Positions 20,831 through 27,661 of a stretch of DNA of 32,376 nt are shown here, piece by piece (the stretch's first letter is position 1; each line of letters begins with the position of its first letter). Origin of the DNA: Anaerolineae bacterium (GTDB lineage: Bacteria; Chloroflexota; Anaerolineae; J102); the NCBI GenBank assembly GCA_015485435.1, contig WFTO01000446.1, positions 1-32,376 of the forward strand, given 5' to 3'. The position numbers were made by a program, and so were the translations under genes. The notes under the pieces are model-generated. The model was not told the origin of the DNA and did no database searches. It saw nothing but the letters and a program-made list of their open reading frames with translations.

Positions 20831-22297
20831 TTACCATCCTATGCCAAAAAGATGCAGAAAGGTGCGAACAGCCAGCGCGGGATCGGGCAACAAAAACCAC
20901 ACCCATCCTAATGTCACGAATTGAAAGGTGATAAACCAAGATAGAAGGGTCCACGCCCACCTTTTTCCTGGGGTTTTGGCCAACGTACGATACCATTTTC
21001 GGGTGCGATCACTCCAAAGTTTATGAACAAATAACCCGAAGCCATGCCATGCCCCCCATATGAAAAAAGCCCAGGTAATTCCATGCCAGAGTCCGATGGC
21101 GACCATGGTTGCCATGAGCCCGATAAAGAGGATGAGGGTTGGGGAAGGACGCGGTTTTCGACGGAGCAAAGACCGTGTTAGGGGAGAAAATAAATAAAAA
21201 CGCACCCAATCGCTTAACGTGATATGCCATCGTTGCCAAAACGAAGTGATGTTGGTGCTTAAATAAGGGCGACGGAAATTTTCCGGTAAACGAATACCCA
21301 GTAGGAGTCCAATGCCGATGGCGATGTCGGTGTAACCAGCAAAATCAAAGTACAGACGAAAGGCGTAGCCATATAAAAGCGCCCATAATGCCACAGGATT
21401 TTGGGTCTGTTCGGCCAGGGTGGGGGTTAGCGCCATGCCCAAAGCCAGGGTGTCGGCGATTACGAACTTCTTAAACATTCCCACCAGAATACGAGCGCCG
21501 CCCTCGCTTAATCGGGCCGCATCCCATCCGAGTATCCCTGGCAGATCCTTCCAATCTTTGTCGAACCGCTCCGCCCGATCAATGGGCCCAGCGATGAATG
21601 CGGGGAAGAAAATCACATACGTTACATATTCGGCCAGACCCAATTCTGGCAGCAACCCGGTTTGCCTGTCGCGCAGGGTATGGATGAGTCGAAAGCTGAC
21701 ATAGGAAAAGCCAAGCCAACGTAAATCTGCCACAGACGCCAACGTTGGGTTTTGCCCCACCAGGCTTCGCCACCAACGCGCCAGCGCCTCGCTCAAAGCG
21801 GGCGTCTTCAACACTACGAAAAGACTGAGGAGAAAAAACAGTACGCTTAGCAACGCAATCTTGCCTTTTCCCCGGCGTAATAGAGCCGCCATTATCATCA
21901 GAACCAATGCCGAGGTGCCCAGCAAAAGCAACCAAAGTGCAGGCCCTGGAGGACGCGAAGGCGTCAAACGCCATTCGATGGCAAGAAACCGATTCATGCC
22001 CATTAGCAGAGCCAGACCCACGATCACACCCAACGCCAGCCAATCATCACCTCGTACAGGTTGCAATCCCTTTTCATCTCGAGTCCGGGTCACCCACCAT
22101 CCCAAAACCGTTAACATTAACGTCAACGACGGTAGGACAAAATCAGCATAGCGTAATGGCAACCAGGGTTGCAGCCAATATACCGCCAGCACACTCCCAC
22201 CTAACAACAACCATTGTCGAAGCTTCCCTCGCGCCAGACCGGCATAAAGCAAGGAAAAAATTACAAAAACAAGGATGGTTTCCAGCCCAAGCCCCAT
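20831..22297 (-). CDS. MBOAT-family O-acyltransferase (AlgI/DltB-like)
   Basis: 488 aa polytopic; FRRPYLSTNITSFWQRWHITLSDWVRFYLFSPL and GLWHGITWAFFIWGAWHGFGL (catalytic-His region). Confidence 0.94.
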   Translation of the reverse strand: MGLGLETILVFVIFSLLYAGLARGKLRQWLLLGGSVLAVYWLQPWLPLRYADFVLPSLTLMLTVLGWWVTRTRDEKGLQPVRGDDWLALGVIVGLALLMGMNRFLAIEWRLTPSRPPGPALWLLLLGTSALVLMIMAALLRRGKGKIALLSVLFFLLSLFVVLKTPALSEALARWWRSLVGQNPTLASVADLRWLGFSYVSFRLIHTLRDRQTGLLPELGLAEYVTYVIFFPAFIAGPIDRAERFDKDWKDLPGILGWDAARLSEGGARILVGMFKKFVIADTLALGMALTPTLAEQTQNPVALWALLYGYAFRLYFDFAGYTDIAIGIGLLLGIRLPENFRRPYLSTNITSFWQRWHITLSDWVRFYLFSPLTRSLLRRKPRPSPTLILFIGLMATMVAIGLWHGITWAFFIWGAWHGFGLFVHKLWSDRTRKWYRTLAKTPGKRWAWTLLSWFITFQFVTLGWVWFLLPDPALAVRTFLHLFGIGW

Positions 22298-22359: not shown

Positions 22360-22476
22360 TCAGAAACCCTGATACATCCATTGTGGGGATGTGTCGGTGG
22401 TAGCAACGATCAGCCCCAAAATCATGAGGGCCAAAAGCAAAGCCAAGACATTTTCATTAGACCACAAACGATGCAT
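22360..22476 (-). CDS. Candidate MBOAT partner microprotein (DltX-like acyl-shuttle peptide), 38 aa: MHRLWSNENVLALLLALMILGLIVATTDTSPQWMYQGF
   Basis: Not in supplied track; GGAGGT SD 6 nt before ATG; one TM helix with basic N-term; C-terminal hexapeptide WMYQGF; 62 nt upstream of the MBOAT gene, same strand. Confidence 0.75.
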   Translation of the reverse strand: MHRLWSNENVLALLLALMILGLIVATTDTSPQWMYQGF

Positions 22477-22506
22477 GAATAGACCTCCAGGGCTGAATAA
22501 CGCCAA

Positions 22507-22884
22507 TTATGGTACAGCGGTTTCGCCGCACCATTTCCACTCGCCATCCTCTTGCACAACACGATACGCAGTCAAAGGGAATTCGGTCTCTTCTGTGCCA
22601 TACAAGGCGACAATCTTCCCCTGGCATTGAACGACATCAGAATCATCCACGCGCGCACATTCCATCCCCTCAATATGTGCACCAGAAACACTAGTAAACG
22701 CATGAATCTCCTGAAAGGCGTTGGCTTCCATCTCCGAACAAAGCAAACTGCGAATTACCTGTTCATCGCCAGCCACTTTTGCCGAGAGATAATCCTCCAC
22801 CACCTTTGCTGGATCACTTTGAGCGCCACAAGCTGCCAAGATCAATGCGAAGGCCAAAACAAAGAGCAATGCGTTTTTCATCAT
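22507..22884 (-). CDS. Small secreted lipoprotein (DUF4878/NTF2-like style)
   Basis: MMKNALLFVLAFALILAACGAQ lipobox; 125 aa. Confidence 0.75.
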   Translation of the reverse strand: MMKNALLFVLAFALILAACGAQSDPAKVVEDYLSAKVAGDEQVIRSLLCSEMEANAFQEIHAFTSVSGAHIEGMECARVDDSDVVQCQGKIVALYGTEETEFPLTAYRVVQEDGEWKWCGETAVP

Positions 22885-24754: not shown

Positions 24755-25306
24755 ATGGCACTCCTAGAAATTGTTAAAATTGGTGATGCAAGACTTCGAC
24801 GAAAAAGTCGCCCCATCCGTCGATTCGATCAACGTCTAAAACAATTGGCCGATGACATGGTTGAAACCATGCGCCATGCCGATGGCGTGGGATTGGCCGC
24901 GCCGCAGATTGGCGTTAATGAACGTCTTATTGTGATCGAATTGCCCGAGGAGGGCTTTGAGGACGATCCTTTTGCTGGCCAGCTTTTTGTGGTCGTCAAT
25001 CCCGAAATCATACGCACCAAAGGCCAACCTGAGCCTGGTGACGAAGGGTGTTTATCCATTCCTGGTTATATTGGGGAGGTCATGCGTTACCCCATGGTAA
25101 CCATCAAAGGCCAGGATATTCATGGAAAGGAAATTCGTATCAGAGCCTTTGATTTCCTGGCGCGCGTCTTTCAACATGAAATTGACCATCTGGATGGCAT
25201 TTTATTCATCGATCACATCAAGGACCCCACCAAACTGCGACGCATTGTGCATGATCCCGAAACCGACGAATGGCGAGAAGAGCCAGCCGCCGAGATCTTT
25301 GGATAA
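24755..25306 (+). CDS. def: Peptide deformylase
   Basis: GVGLAAPQIG, EGCLSIPG, FQHEIDHLDGILF motifs. Confidence 0.97.
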   Translation: MALLEIVKIGDARLRRKSRPIRRFDQRLKQLADDMVETMRHADGVGLAAPQIGVNERLIVIELPEEGFEDDPFAGQLFVVVNPEIIRTKGQPEPGDEGCLSIPGYIGEVMRYPMVTIKGQDIHGKEIRIRAFDFLARVFQHEIDHLDGILFIDHIKDPTKLRRIVHDPETDEWREEPAAEIFG

Positions 25307-25323
25307 ACGCATTCAACCATGTT

Positions 25324-26154
25324 ATGTTGCACGCTTCTATGAACATCACCAGACTGCTCACCGCCCTCATATTGCTGATGGGGGCGGTTTTGCTGCTGCC
25401 CTTGTGGCGTTGGTTGCTTTTAGAATGGTGGAGTAACGATTACTATAGCCACGGCTTGCTCGTGCCTTGGATATCGGGCTTTTTTGCCTGGCGCATCATC
25501 CCGCACCTGGAACGCAAACCCGAGGACCGAGGATTGGTGTTGGTGGCTATCGGTGTGACCGTGTATCTTGTTTTCCTTTACTTTCGAGCTTTTCATTTTG
25601 CAGCACTGGGCATGATCTTATTGTTCGCCGGCATGATATGGACTTACTGGGGACTTGCTGGCTTGAAGAAGTTGACATTTCCTCTGGTATTTCTGATATT
25701 TATGATTCCATTTCCATTTGTTGAAGCAAGCAGCTTGCCTCTTTCTTTGTTAACAGGACAGCTGGCGACGAGGCTGATGCAAGGGGTCGGGCTTGATGTC
25801 ACAGTGCAGGGGGCTGCCGTCACTCTGCCTAATGCCAACCTCATCGTTGGCGCCCAATGCTCTGGCGTGCGCTCCATCATCACTTTGTTTACCCTGGCCG
25901 CGGTGTTCACCTATCTCGTTGAAGGCCAATGGTTGCGAAAGCTTCTCCTCTTTCTTGCAGTGATTCCCATTGCTATTCTGGGCAATATCGTCCGGGTTAG
26001 CTCGTTACTTTGGGTTGCCAACCGGTGGGGCGCCGATGCTGGCTTCACCTATTATCATGATTATTCTGGCTTTGTCTTTTTTGCATTTTCCTTTCTTCTC
26101 TTCATCCTTCTAGCGCAGATTCTCGGATGCAACAAGATTCGAAGCGAACGCTGA
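25324..26154 (+). CDS. Exosortase/archaeosortase family transpeptidase
   Basis: Polytopic; catalytic-Cys motif VGAQCSGVRSIITL, Arg in GNIVRVSSLLW, His in YYHDYSGF; start ambiguous (25324 or 25339). Confidence 0.93.
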   Translation: MLHASMNITRLLTALILLMGAVLLLPLWRWLLLEWWSNDYYSHGLLVPWISGFFAWRIIPHLERKPEDRGLVLVAIGVTVYLVFLYFRAFHFAALGMILLFAGMIWTYWGLAGLKKLTFPLVFLIFMIPFPFVEASSLPLSLLTGQLATRLMQGVGLDVTVQGAAVTLPNANLIVGAQCSGVRSIITLFTLAAVFTYLVEGQWLRKLLLFLAVIPIAILGNIVRVSSLLWVANRWGADAGFTYYHDYSGFVFFAFSFLLFILLAQILGCNKIRSER

Positions 26155-26804
26155 TTCTTCTGGTTATCCTCGTCCTCGCCCTGGCCGTCATGGGCGCGTT
26201 CTTTGGTCGTGACCTGTTAGAAAGCCGAGTGCTGGGAAAAGAAAAAGGGTACACCTTTGTGACTGACATCGATCGTTGGCGCAAAACCCGTCGTGAACGC
26301 GTCCTTCGAGCCAGATACGATCTCAGCCTGGGGCCACAGCTTCATGATCTTCCCCTGCAAATCGGCGAATGGACCGGAGAAGATGTTCCCCAGACAAACA
26401 TTGAAGTGAACATTCTCCTTGAGCCTGAGGAATACGTCTACCGACGATATCGCCGAGCAGACGGGAAAATTTTATGGTTAAGCATCATTGGCAGCCGTCA
26501 GTCCAAATCCTTCCATCCTCCCCAGATATGCTATGATGCTGCGGGCTGGGCGACTGAAATCGCTTCTGAGCCAATTACGCTGGAAAAAGGCGACTTTTAC
26601 GCCCTGAAAGTCAAAGCGCAAAAAGATGGTTGGACGCATTTAGTCTTGTATTTTTATCTTTTTCCAGATTATTTGCGCGATCAAAGCAAGGGAATCGTAC
26701 TTTTCAAGGTGACGGCTCCTATGGGCGCATCAACCGAGGAAACTTTAGAGCTGGAAAAATCGTTCCTACGTCAAATATTTTACGAAGCTGCAGATCATTT
26801 GTAA
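26127..26804 (+). CDS. EpsI-family (DUF3485) exosortase-associated protein
   Basis: Overlaps exosortase by 28 nt; YRRADGKILWLSIIGSRQSKSFHPPQICYDAAGW is the EpsI HxPxxCxxxxGW signature. Confidence 0.9.
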   Translation: MQQDSKRTLILLVILVLALAVMGAFFGRDLLESRVLGKEKGYTFVTDIDRWRKTRRERVLRARYDLSLGPQLHDLPLQIGEWTGEDVPQTNIEVNILLEPEEYVYRRYRRADGKILWLSIIGSRQSKSFHPPQICYDAAGWATEIASEPITLEKGDFYALKVKAQKDGWTHLVLYFYLFPDYLRDQSKGIVLFKVTAPMGASTEETLELEKSFLRQIFYEAADHL

Positions 26805-26884
26805 GACGTTTATAGAACAGGCTACAATGAACGTCTTGTGATATCTCACCCCACTCTGGTTCTCGGCCGATTTCTAAACCGAAA

Positions 26885-27661
26885 ATGATGCGTCGTATCG
26901 ATAATACGGTCCCTTCCGCACCAATCGCATATTCACAGCCGGATGAATCCCTGCCTGAAGAACGGCAATTATTGCCAAGCTTCGGCAATGTGAAGCTTGT
27001 TTGGTTTGTCTATGGCGTATTTGGGCTGTTGCTTTTAATTACCTTTGGGTTTGTTACATTCCAGCCCATCAAGGTCCTGCCGCGTGTGCGTCTTGCCCCG
27101 GGATATATCCTCACCGATCAAGATGGGAACACCGTAAACAATGAACAGTTTCGAGGGAAATTAACGCTTTACAATTTCACCTATACGCGTTGTCAGCCAC
27201 CTGATTGTCGTCAACTGGACGCAACCATGAAGGAAATCCAGGATCGCATCCAGGAAGCTGAAACCTATGGGCTTCCCGTTGAATTTGTGACCATTTCCTT
27301 TGATCCTGCCTACGACACGCCCGCGGTTCTGAAAGCTCATGCCGAGGACATCGGCGCTGACACCAGCACATGGCATTTTCTGACCAGCGATGACCCGAAA
27401 CAGGTGAAACGGGTGGTAGGGACAGGTTTTCAGGTTTATTTCAAGGAACGTGGGGATGGTGATTTTGAATTTATCCCCACCATGATTCTGGTCGATGGCT
27501 GGGGCATTGTGCGTGGCATTTATAACGGGCGCGTCTATTTGCCGGAGACAGAACGTATTCTCAGCCATTTCAACGTTGTAGCTGGCGAGGCGGCTTTTAG
27601 CAAAGGCGCCAATCGTGTAGGCTATGAAGCGGCGCACCTCTTCCTGTGTTACGCAGATTGA
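26885..27661 (+). CDS. Divergent Sco1/SenC-like thioredoxin-fold protein
   Basis: TM anchor then LAPGYILTDQDGNTVNNEQFRGKLTLYNFTYTRCQPPDCRQLDATMKEIQ; CxxxxC rather than CxxxC. Confidence 0.85.
   Translation: MMRRIDNTVPSAPIAYSQPDESLPEERQLLPSFGNVKLVWFVYGVFGLLLLITFGFVTFQPIKVLPRVRLAPGYILTDQDGNTVNNEQFRGKLTLYNFTYTRCQPPDCRQLDATMKEIQDRIQEAETYGLPVEFVTISFDPAYDTPAVLKAHAEDIGADTSTWHFLTSDDPKQVKRVVGTGFQVYFKERGDGDFEFIPTMILVDGWGIVRGIYNGRVYLPETERILSHFNVVAGEAAFSKGANRVGYEAAHLFLCYAD

Follow-up and report, generated by a model that had tools for sequence, protein, structure and literature searches.

Which function can be assigned to an open reading frame of only 38 amino acids that lies directly upstream of an MBOAT O-acyltransferase gene in an Anaerolineae bacterium? 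The window, i.e. the whole stretch of DNA analysed here, comprises 32,376 nt (contig WFTO01000446.1). The following features are concerned:

22360 to 22476, minus strand: putative acyl-shuttle microprotein of 38 aa, with a basic N-terminus, one TM helix (from sequence) and the C-terminal hexapeptide WMYQGF containing Tyr35

22483 to 22488, minus strand: Shine-Dalgarno-like GGAGGT of the microprotein gene, recognized by sequence, with a 6-nt spacer before the ATG

20831 to 22297, minus strand: MBOAT O-acyltransferase of 488 aa, with a DltB-like core and the conserved His405 (GLWHG), lacking both the hexapeptide and the additional C-terminal segments seen in fused MBOATs

22507 to 22884, minus strand: small lipoprotein of 125 aa, of unknown family and without Pfam match, located upstream of the microprotein in many relatives

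Elsewhere in the window (25270 to 27661, plus strand), an exosortase (PF09721), a DUF3485 protein and a SCO1/SenC protein are encoded in a row; as called, the exosortase ORF overlaps the end of a peptide deformylase gene.

Our answer, to which we assign a probability of roughly 84%, is that the reading frame codes for an acyl-shuttle subunit, part of an MBOAT-SGNH system for envelope acylation that depends on a carrier protein and was found here in Anaerolineae-class Chloroflexota. This system would be fed by a FAAL/ACP pair and act via Tyr35. The reading frame begins with ATG, is translated into MHRLWSNENVLALLLALMILGLIVATTDTSPQWMYQGF followed by the stop codon, and is separated from the MBOAT ATG at 22297 by a gap of 62 nt. 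The window contains 623 open stretches with 30 codons or more, and no other one ends in [FWY]xYxxF. Its single TM segment and its topology are a judgement from the sequence only. The microprotein has no family match in Pfam or NCBIfam and was therefore probably missed by annotation; its profile gave only a chance match in the PDB.

Orthologues ending in [WF][IM]Y[QT][GA]F immediately before the stop codon were found directly upstream of a motif-less MBOAT on dozens of Anaerolineae (Chloroflexota) contigs, and 57 microproteins with this kind of ending were listed. In an alignment of 27 of these microproteins the residues E8, A12, P31, Y35 and F38 are invariant. The MBOAT orthologues L019 to L043 (42–77% identity) all belong to Chloroflexota, and nearly all of them, as well as the more distant L044, are preceded by a microprotein ending in WIYQGF or a sequence near to it. 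It is absent from the fetched stretch in three cases (L025, L027 and L030); for L027 and L030 this stretch stops about 0.85 kb upstream of the MBOAT. In a search of 400 Chloroflexota genomes the microprotein profile matched 34, all of them from the class of the window (Anaerolineae), and exactly the same 34 were matched by the MBOAT profile at E <= 1e-90. None of the 400 possessed only one of the two genes. Extra copies occur in two genomes (G367 and G372), and in a further one (G384) microprotein and MBOAT are located on different contigs, with both retained. Outside the Chloroflexota, the range was sampled in 300 Bacillota genomes and 20 others only. The microprotein profile had no match in the 300 Bacillota genomes, a search without positive control, and in the 20 genomes with fused MBOATs, from several phyla, there was one marginal match, within a 501-codon frame only.

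A reading frame that is short and matches no known family might have arisen by chance or be in decay. This explanation can practically be dismissed, given the protein-level selection (median dN/dS about 0.25 for 167 usable pairs), the intact state of the frame in the relatives that were read and its complete co-occurrence with the MBOAT; synonymous variation is also seen in the hexapeptide codons. On the basis of the comparison with relatives, the ORF at 22360 to 22476 on the minus strand is confirmed as a real and conserved gene. The original prediction had placed a 38-aa ORF here, with the same coordinates, ATG and distance to the MBOAT, and had proposed to check the ORF and its terminal Tyr and Phe for conservation in relatives. 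This check was passed on both counts.

Small single-TM proteins often stabilise membrane enzymes. The microprotein, which immediately precedes the MBOAT in most loci, could thus also be an assembly or stability subunit of the MBOAT or a regulatory leader peptide, and not carry an acyl group at all. Such a role appears quite unlikely to us, since conservation peaks in the C-terminal hexapeptide with its invariant Tyr and terminal Phe, and since the same motif is fused to other MBOATs and is acylated in PatA. Furthermore, the microprotein is kept where other genes separate it from the MBOAT or where the two are on different contigs (L026, G384), and this speaks against a leader. An acyl shuttle remains the preferred reading.

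The MBOAT satisfies the criteria of its superfamily, with a PF03062 score of 77.2 bits (above the cut-off), the conserved His and an MBOAT fold. His405 is invariant in the alignment. DltB is the nearest structure in the PDB both by profile search and by fold search with the predicted model (pLDDT 91.8). The C-terminus reads ...AVRTFLHLFGIGW and lacks the motif. This absence had been part of the original prediction, and it extends to the orthologues: in none of the 54 MBOATs of the split clade that share a locus with a microprotein was a fused hexapeptide present, so that the criterion for a fused architecture of the PatA/AlgI type fails. The fused MBOATs from many phyla (L045 to L098) carry the hexapeptide at their own C-terminus, with the ending F[IVLAY]Y..F. 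In the alignment, the split MBOATs terminate roughly where true DltB does, whereas fused MBOATs run on with extra hydrophobic segments, absent from the other two, and then the motif. In the phylogenetic tree, one branch each separates the split, the fused and the DltB sequences from all others (SH-aLRT 93, 98 and 100), the DltB branch being long. Because of this long branch and because the root is unknown, it is undecided whether the split clade is closer to DltB or to the fused MBOATs. True DltB sequences were sampled from dlt operons reached via PF12459; in the genomes with fused MBOATs no MBOAT scored above the DltB cut-off.

Conventional fused MBOATs also occur beside the split system. The genome of the window encodes a second MBOAT (G000:C206, L001:2-2264), to which FIYFQF is fused; it is followed by a protein of 313 aa, SGNH-like by eye and without a family match. 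In two Anaerolineae genomes, fused MBOATs precede the split system by a few kb (L161:2-3370 with FIYFQF and L163:1482-2927 with FIYVQF).

Conservation of gene order links the pair to further partners. On many independent contigs of relatives the order is microprotein, MBOAT, SGNH protein, ACP, FAAL, and the criterion for an MBOAT-SGNH pathway, an MBOAT, an SGNH protein and a shuttle motif encoded together, is satisfied in these relatives. In the genome of the window, adjacent genes for an SGNH protein (395 aa), an ACP (84 aa) and a FAAL (566 aa) are found on contig C392. As this is a different contig from that of the MBOAT, the link in this genome rests on the relatives; the existence of all five parts in it can be read from its sequence. 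The original prediction had stated that the window holds no dltA- or dltC-like gene and no SGNH/DltD-like transferase, and had suggested a genome-wide search for the SGNH partner. The statement holds for the window but not beyond it, and the partner was found, beside ACP and FAAL, on C392.

A hydrophobic helix is present at the N-terminus of the SGNH protein, whose GDS, N and H residues are invariant or nearly so. Its profile found nothing among the PDB sequences at E up to 1; its predicted model (pLDDT 90) has an SGNH/GDSL-like fold and matches SGNH/GDSL esterases, and DltD weakly. In the ACP the serine of the DSF motif is invariant. The ligase has the FAAL structures 3KXW and 3PBK as top matches in the PDB (E about 1e-71 to 1e-69), and its best NCBIfam match is the fatty acyl-AMP ligase model NF006624, with 371 bits, below the model's own cut-off of 600 bits. 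By sequence class and by its adjacent ACP partner it satisfies the criterion for a FAAL. FAALs pass acyl groups to holo-ACP and reject CoA (PMC8460268). For the enzyme described here, the substrate remains a prediction of class, and the activation of a fatty acid as well as the rejection of CoA are inferred.

The 125-aa lipoprotein encoded upstream of the microprotein is likely associated with the system, perhaps as a sixth component. Several relatives encode another family of lipoproteins, GDSL-like, either after the SGNH gene and ahead of the ACP gene or immediately in front of the MBOAT gene (L039:8617-9564, L026:3571-4656 and similar).

These five functions and their split architecture are shared with the Dlt system (DltX, DltB, DltC, DltD and DltA), which D-alanylates teichoic acids in Bacillota. 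There, too, a separate single-TM microprotein with the ending aromatic-I-Y-x-x-F is combined with a motif-less MBOAT, a small carrier protein, an adenylating ligase and an SGNH-type transferase. The genes might hence be distant versions of the Dlt genes and their cargo D-alanine, as would also suit a MBOAT with DltB as its closest solved relative and an ACP weakly matching DltC. We regard such a divergent true Dlt system as very unlikely. The ligase is of the FAAL type, with SWLPLYHDMGL at the position where DltA has the segment APFSFDLSVMD. The MBOAT reaches 244.8 bits with the DltB model TIGR04091, under the cut-off of 375, and in the tree DltB stands as a separate group behind its long branch. 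The ACP (L030) reaches 21 bits with the dltC model TIGR01688, under the cut-off of 52.35. A Pfam search of the SGNH proteins gave no DltD match, the sole meaningful match being Lipase_GDSL_2, and the comparison with the DltD profile was not significant (E 0.08, probability 0.7%). The microprotein does possess the DltX-type traits, a single TM segment (judged from sequence) and a C-terminal FxYxxF-type hexapeptide with a Tyr that is invariant in the alignments, the first residue being mostly W, not F. However, the Pfam DltX model PF12459 did not match any of 27 microproteins at E up to 10, and an HMM-HMM comparison with DltX covered the last 12 residues only, at a probability of 3%, without significant overall similarity. 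The arrangement is different as well: DltX is located beside dltA in the dlt operon, whereas the shuttle gene here adjoins the MBOAT gene, the ligase comes last and the host belongs to Chloroflexota. Membership in the true Dlt system is rejected on the tests of ligase, MBOAT, ACP, SGNH protein and microprotein. By inference, the microprotein works like DltX without being a member of the DltX family, within an apparently fatty-acyl type of system in which a FAAL takes the place of DltA.

According to a paper of 2025, neither a carrier protein nor a DltX-like microprotein occurs in non-Dlt MBOAT/SGNH pathways (PMC12148441). The Chloroflexota system, contrary to this statement, has both, and its loading enzyme resembles a fatty-acyl-AMP ligase. 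It resembles PatA/PatB and the AlgI-type systems in having an MBOAT, an SGNH partner and a C-terminal hexapeptide of the same type (PMC12148441). In those systems the motif follows extra helices at the end of the MBOAT itself and acyl-CoA is given as the donor (PMC12148441), whereas here a separate protein carries the motif and a FAAL/ACP pair is present.

A different combination was seen in Bradyrhizobium. In L059 (4538-11177) and similar loci, FAAL and ACP are encoded beside the MBOAT as in the Anaerolineae, but the motif is fused (FVYFKF), no microprotein was found and a fatty acid desaturase gene lies upstream; a FAAL match was present in many other fetched Bradyrhizobium loci. This carrier-protein-dependent cluster with a fused motif also contradicts the published generalisation. 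Since Bradyrhizobium pairs FAAL and ACP with a fused MBOAT, dependence on an ACP alone does not require a separate shuttle, and the simple rule that an ACP donor goes with a separate microprotein and a CoA donor with a fused motif is ruled out. In a Melainabacteria locus (L078:5803-11858), the genes after a fused MBOAT (FIYFQF) encode a GDSL protein, an ACP, a HUP protein resembling QueC and argininosuccinate synthase, and an asparagine synthase; the acyl donor in this locus may be unusual.

For the Anaerolineae, the following course may be envisaged. The carboxylic acid activated by the FAAL would probably be a fatty acid, and the enzyme would load the acyl group onto the phosphopantetheine of the small ACP as a thioester. 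The MBOAT would then move it across the membrane to Tyr35 of the single-pass microprotein, whose C-terminal hexapeptide W-M-Y-Q-G-F is presumably extracytoplasmic. The SGNH serine would accept it next, and the SGNH protein would finally acylate an outer acceptor, probably at a hydroxyl group of a glycolipid or envelope polymer. For PatA of the PatA/PatB system, an acyl-Tyr within the C-terminal hexapeptide has been shown, and for DltX it has been described (PMC12148441). For the system described here, the formation of acyl-Tyr, the direction of transfer and the formation of a complex are inferred by analogy with DltX/DltB and PatA/PatB, and the identity of the acyl group, the acceptor and the chemistry are inferred in the absence of any biochemistry or translation data. 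What sequence comparison shows is that the gene exists and is conserved, that it occurs in exactly the same genomes as the MBOAT, that the gene order is kept, to which families the proteins belong and that the Tyr, Ser and His residues are invariant. The core of the original prediction, an acylation system that is split, distinct from Dlt and equipped with a DltX-like carrier, is supported by the conserved ORF with its terminal Tyr and Phe and by the lack of a fused motif in the orthologous MBOATs. Not foreseen in it were the dependence on an ACP and the parallel to the whole Dlt set.

No report of such a system was found in the literature, including reports on Chloroflexota, in a search that left out bioRxiv and most subscription papers. 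It is rather likely that we are dealing with a complete Dlt-like machine that has its own DltX-like microprotein and is apparently dedicated to the export of fatty, not D-alanyl, acyl groups from FAAL/ACP to the cell surface. If this is true, split and fused acyl-shuttle motifs would be exchangeable designs, and fatty acylation of the envelope would be possible without CoA. The system would constitute a second example of a split shuttle, without clear sequence kinship to DltX, and a natural comparison for asking why some systems have a separate shuttle motif and others a fused one. For the Anaerolineae themselves, it provides a concrete lead on their surface chemistry.
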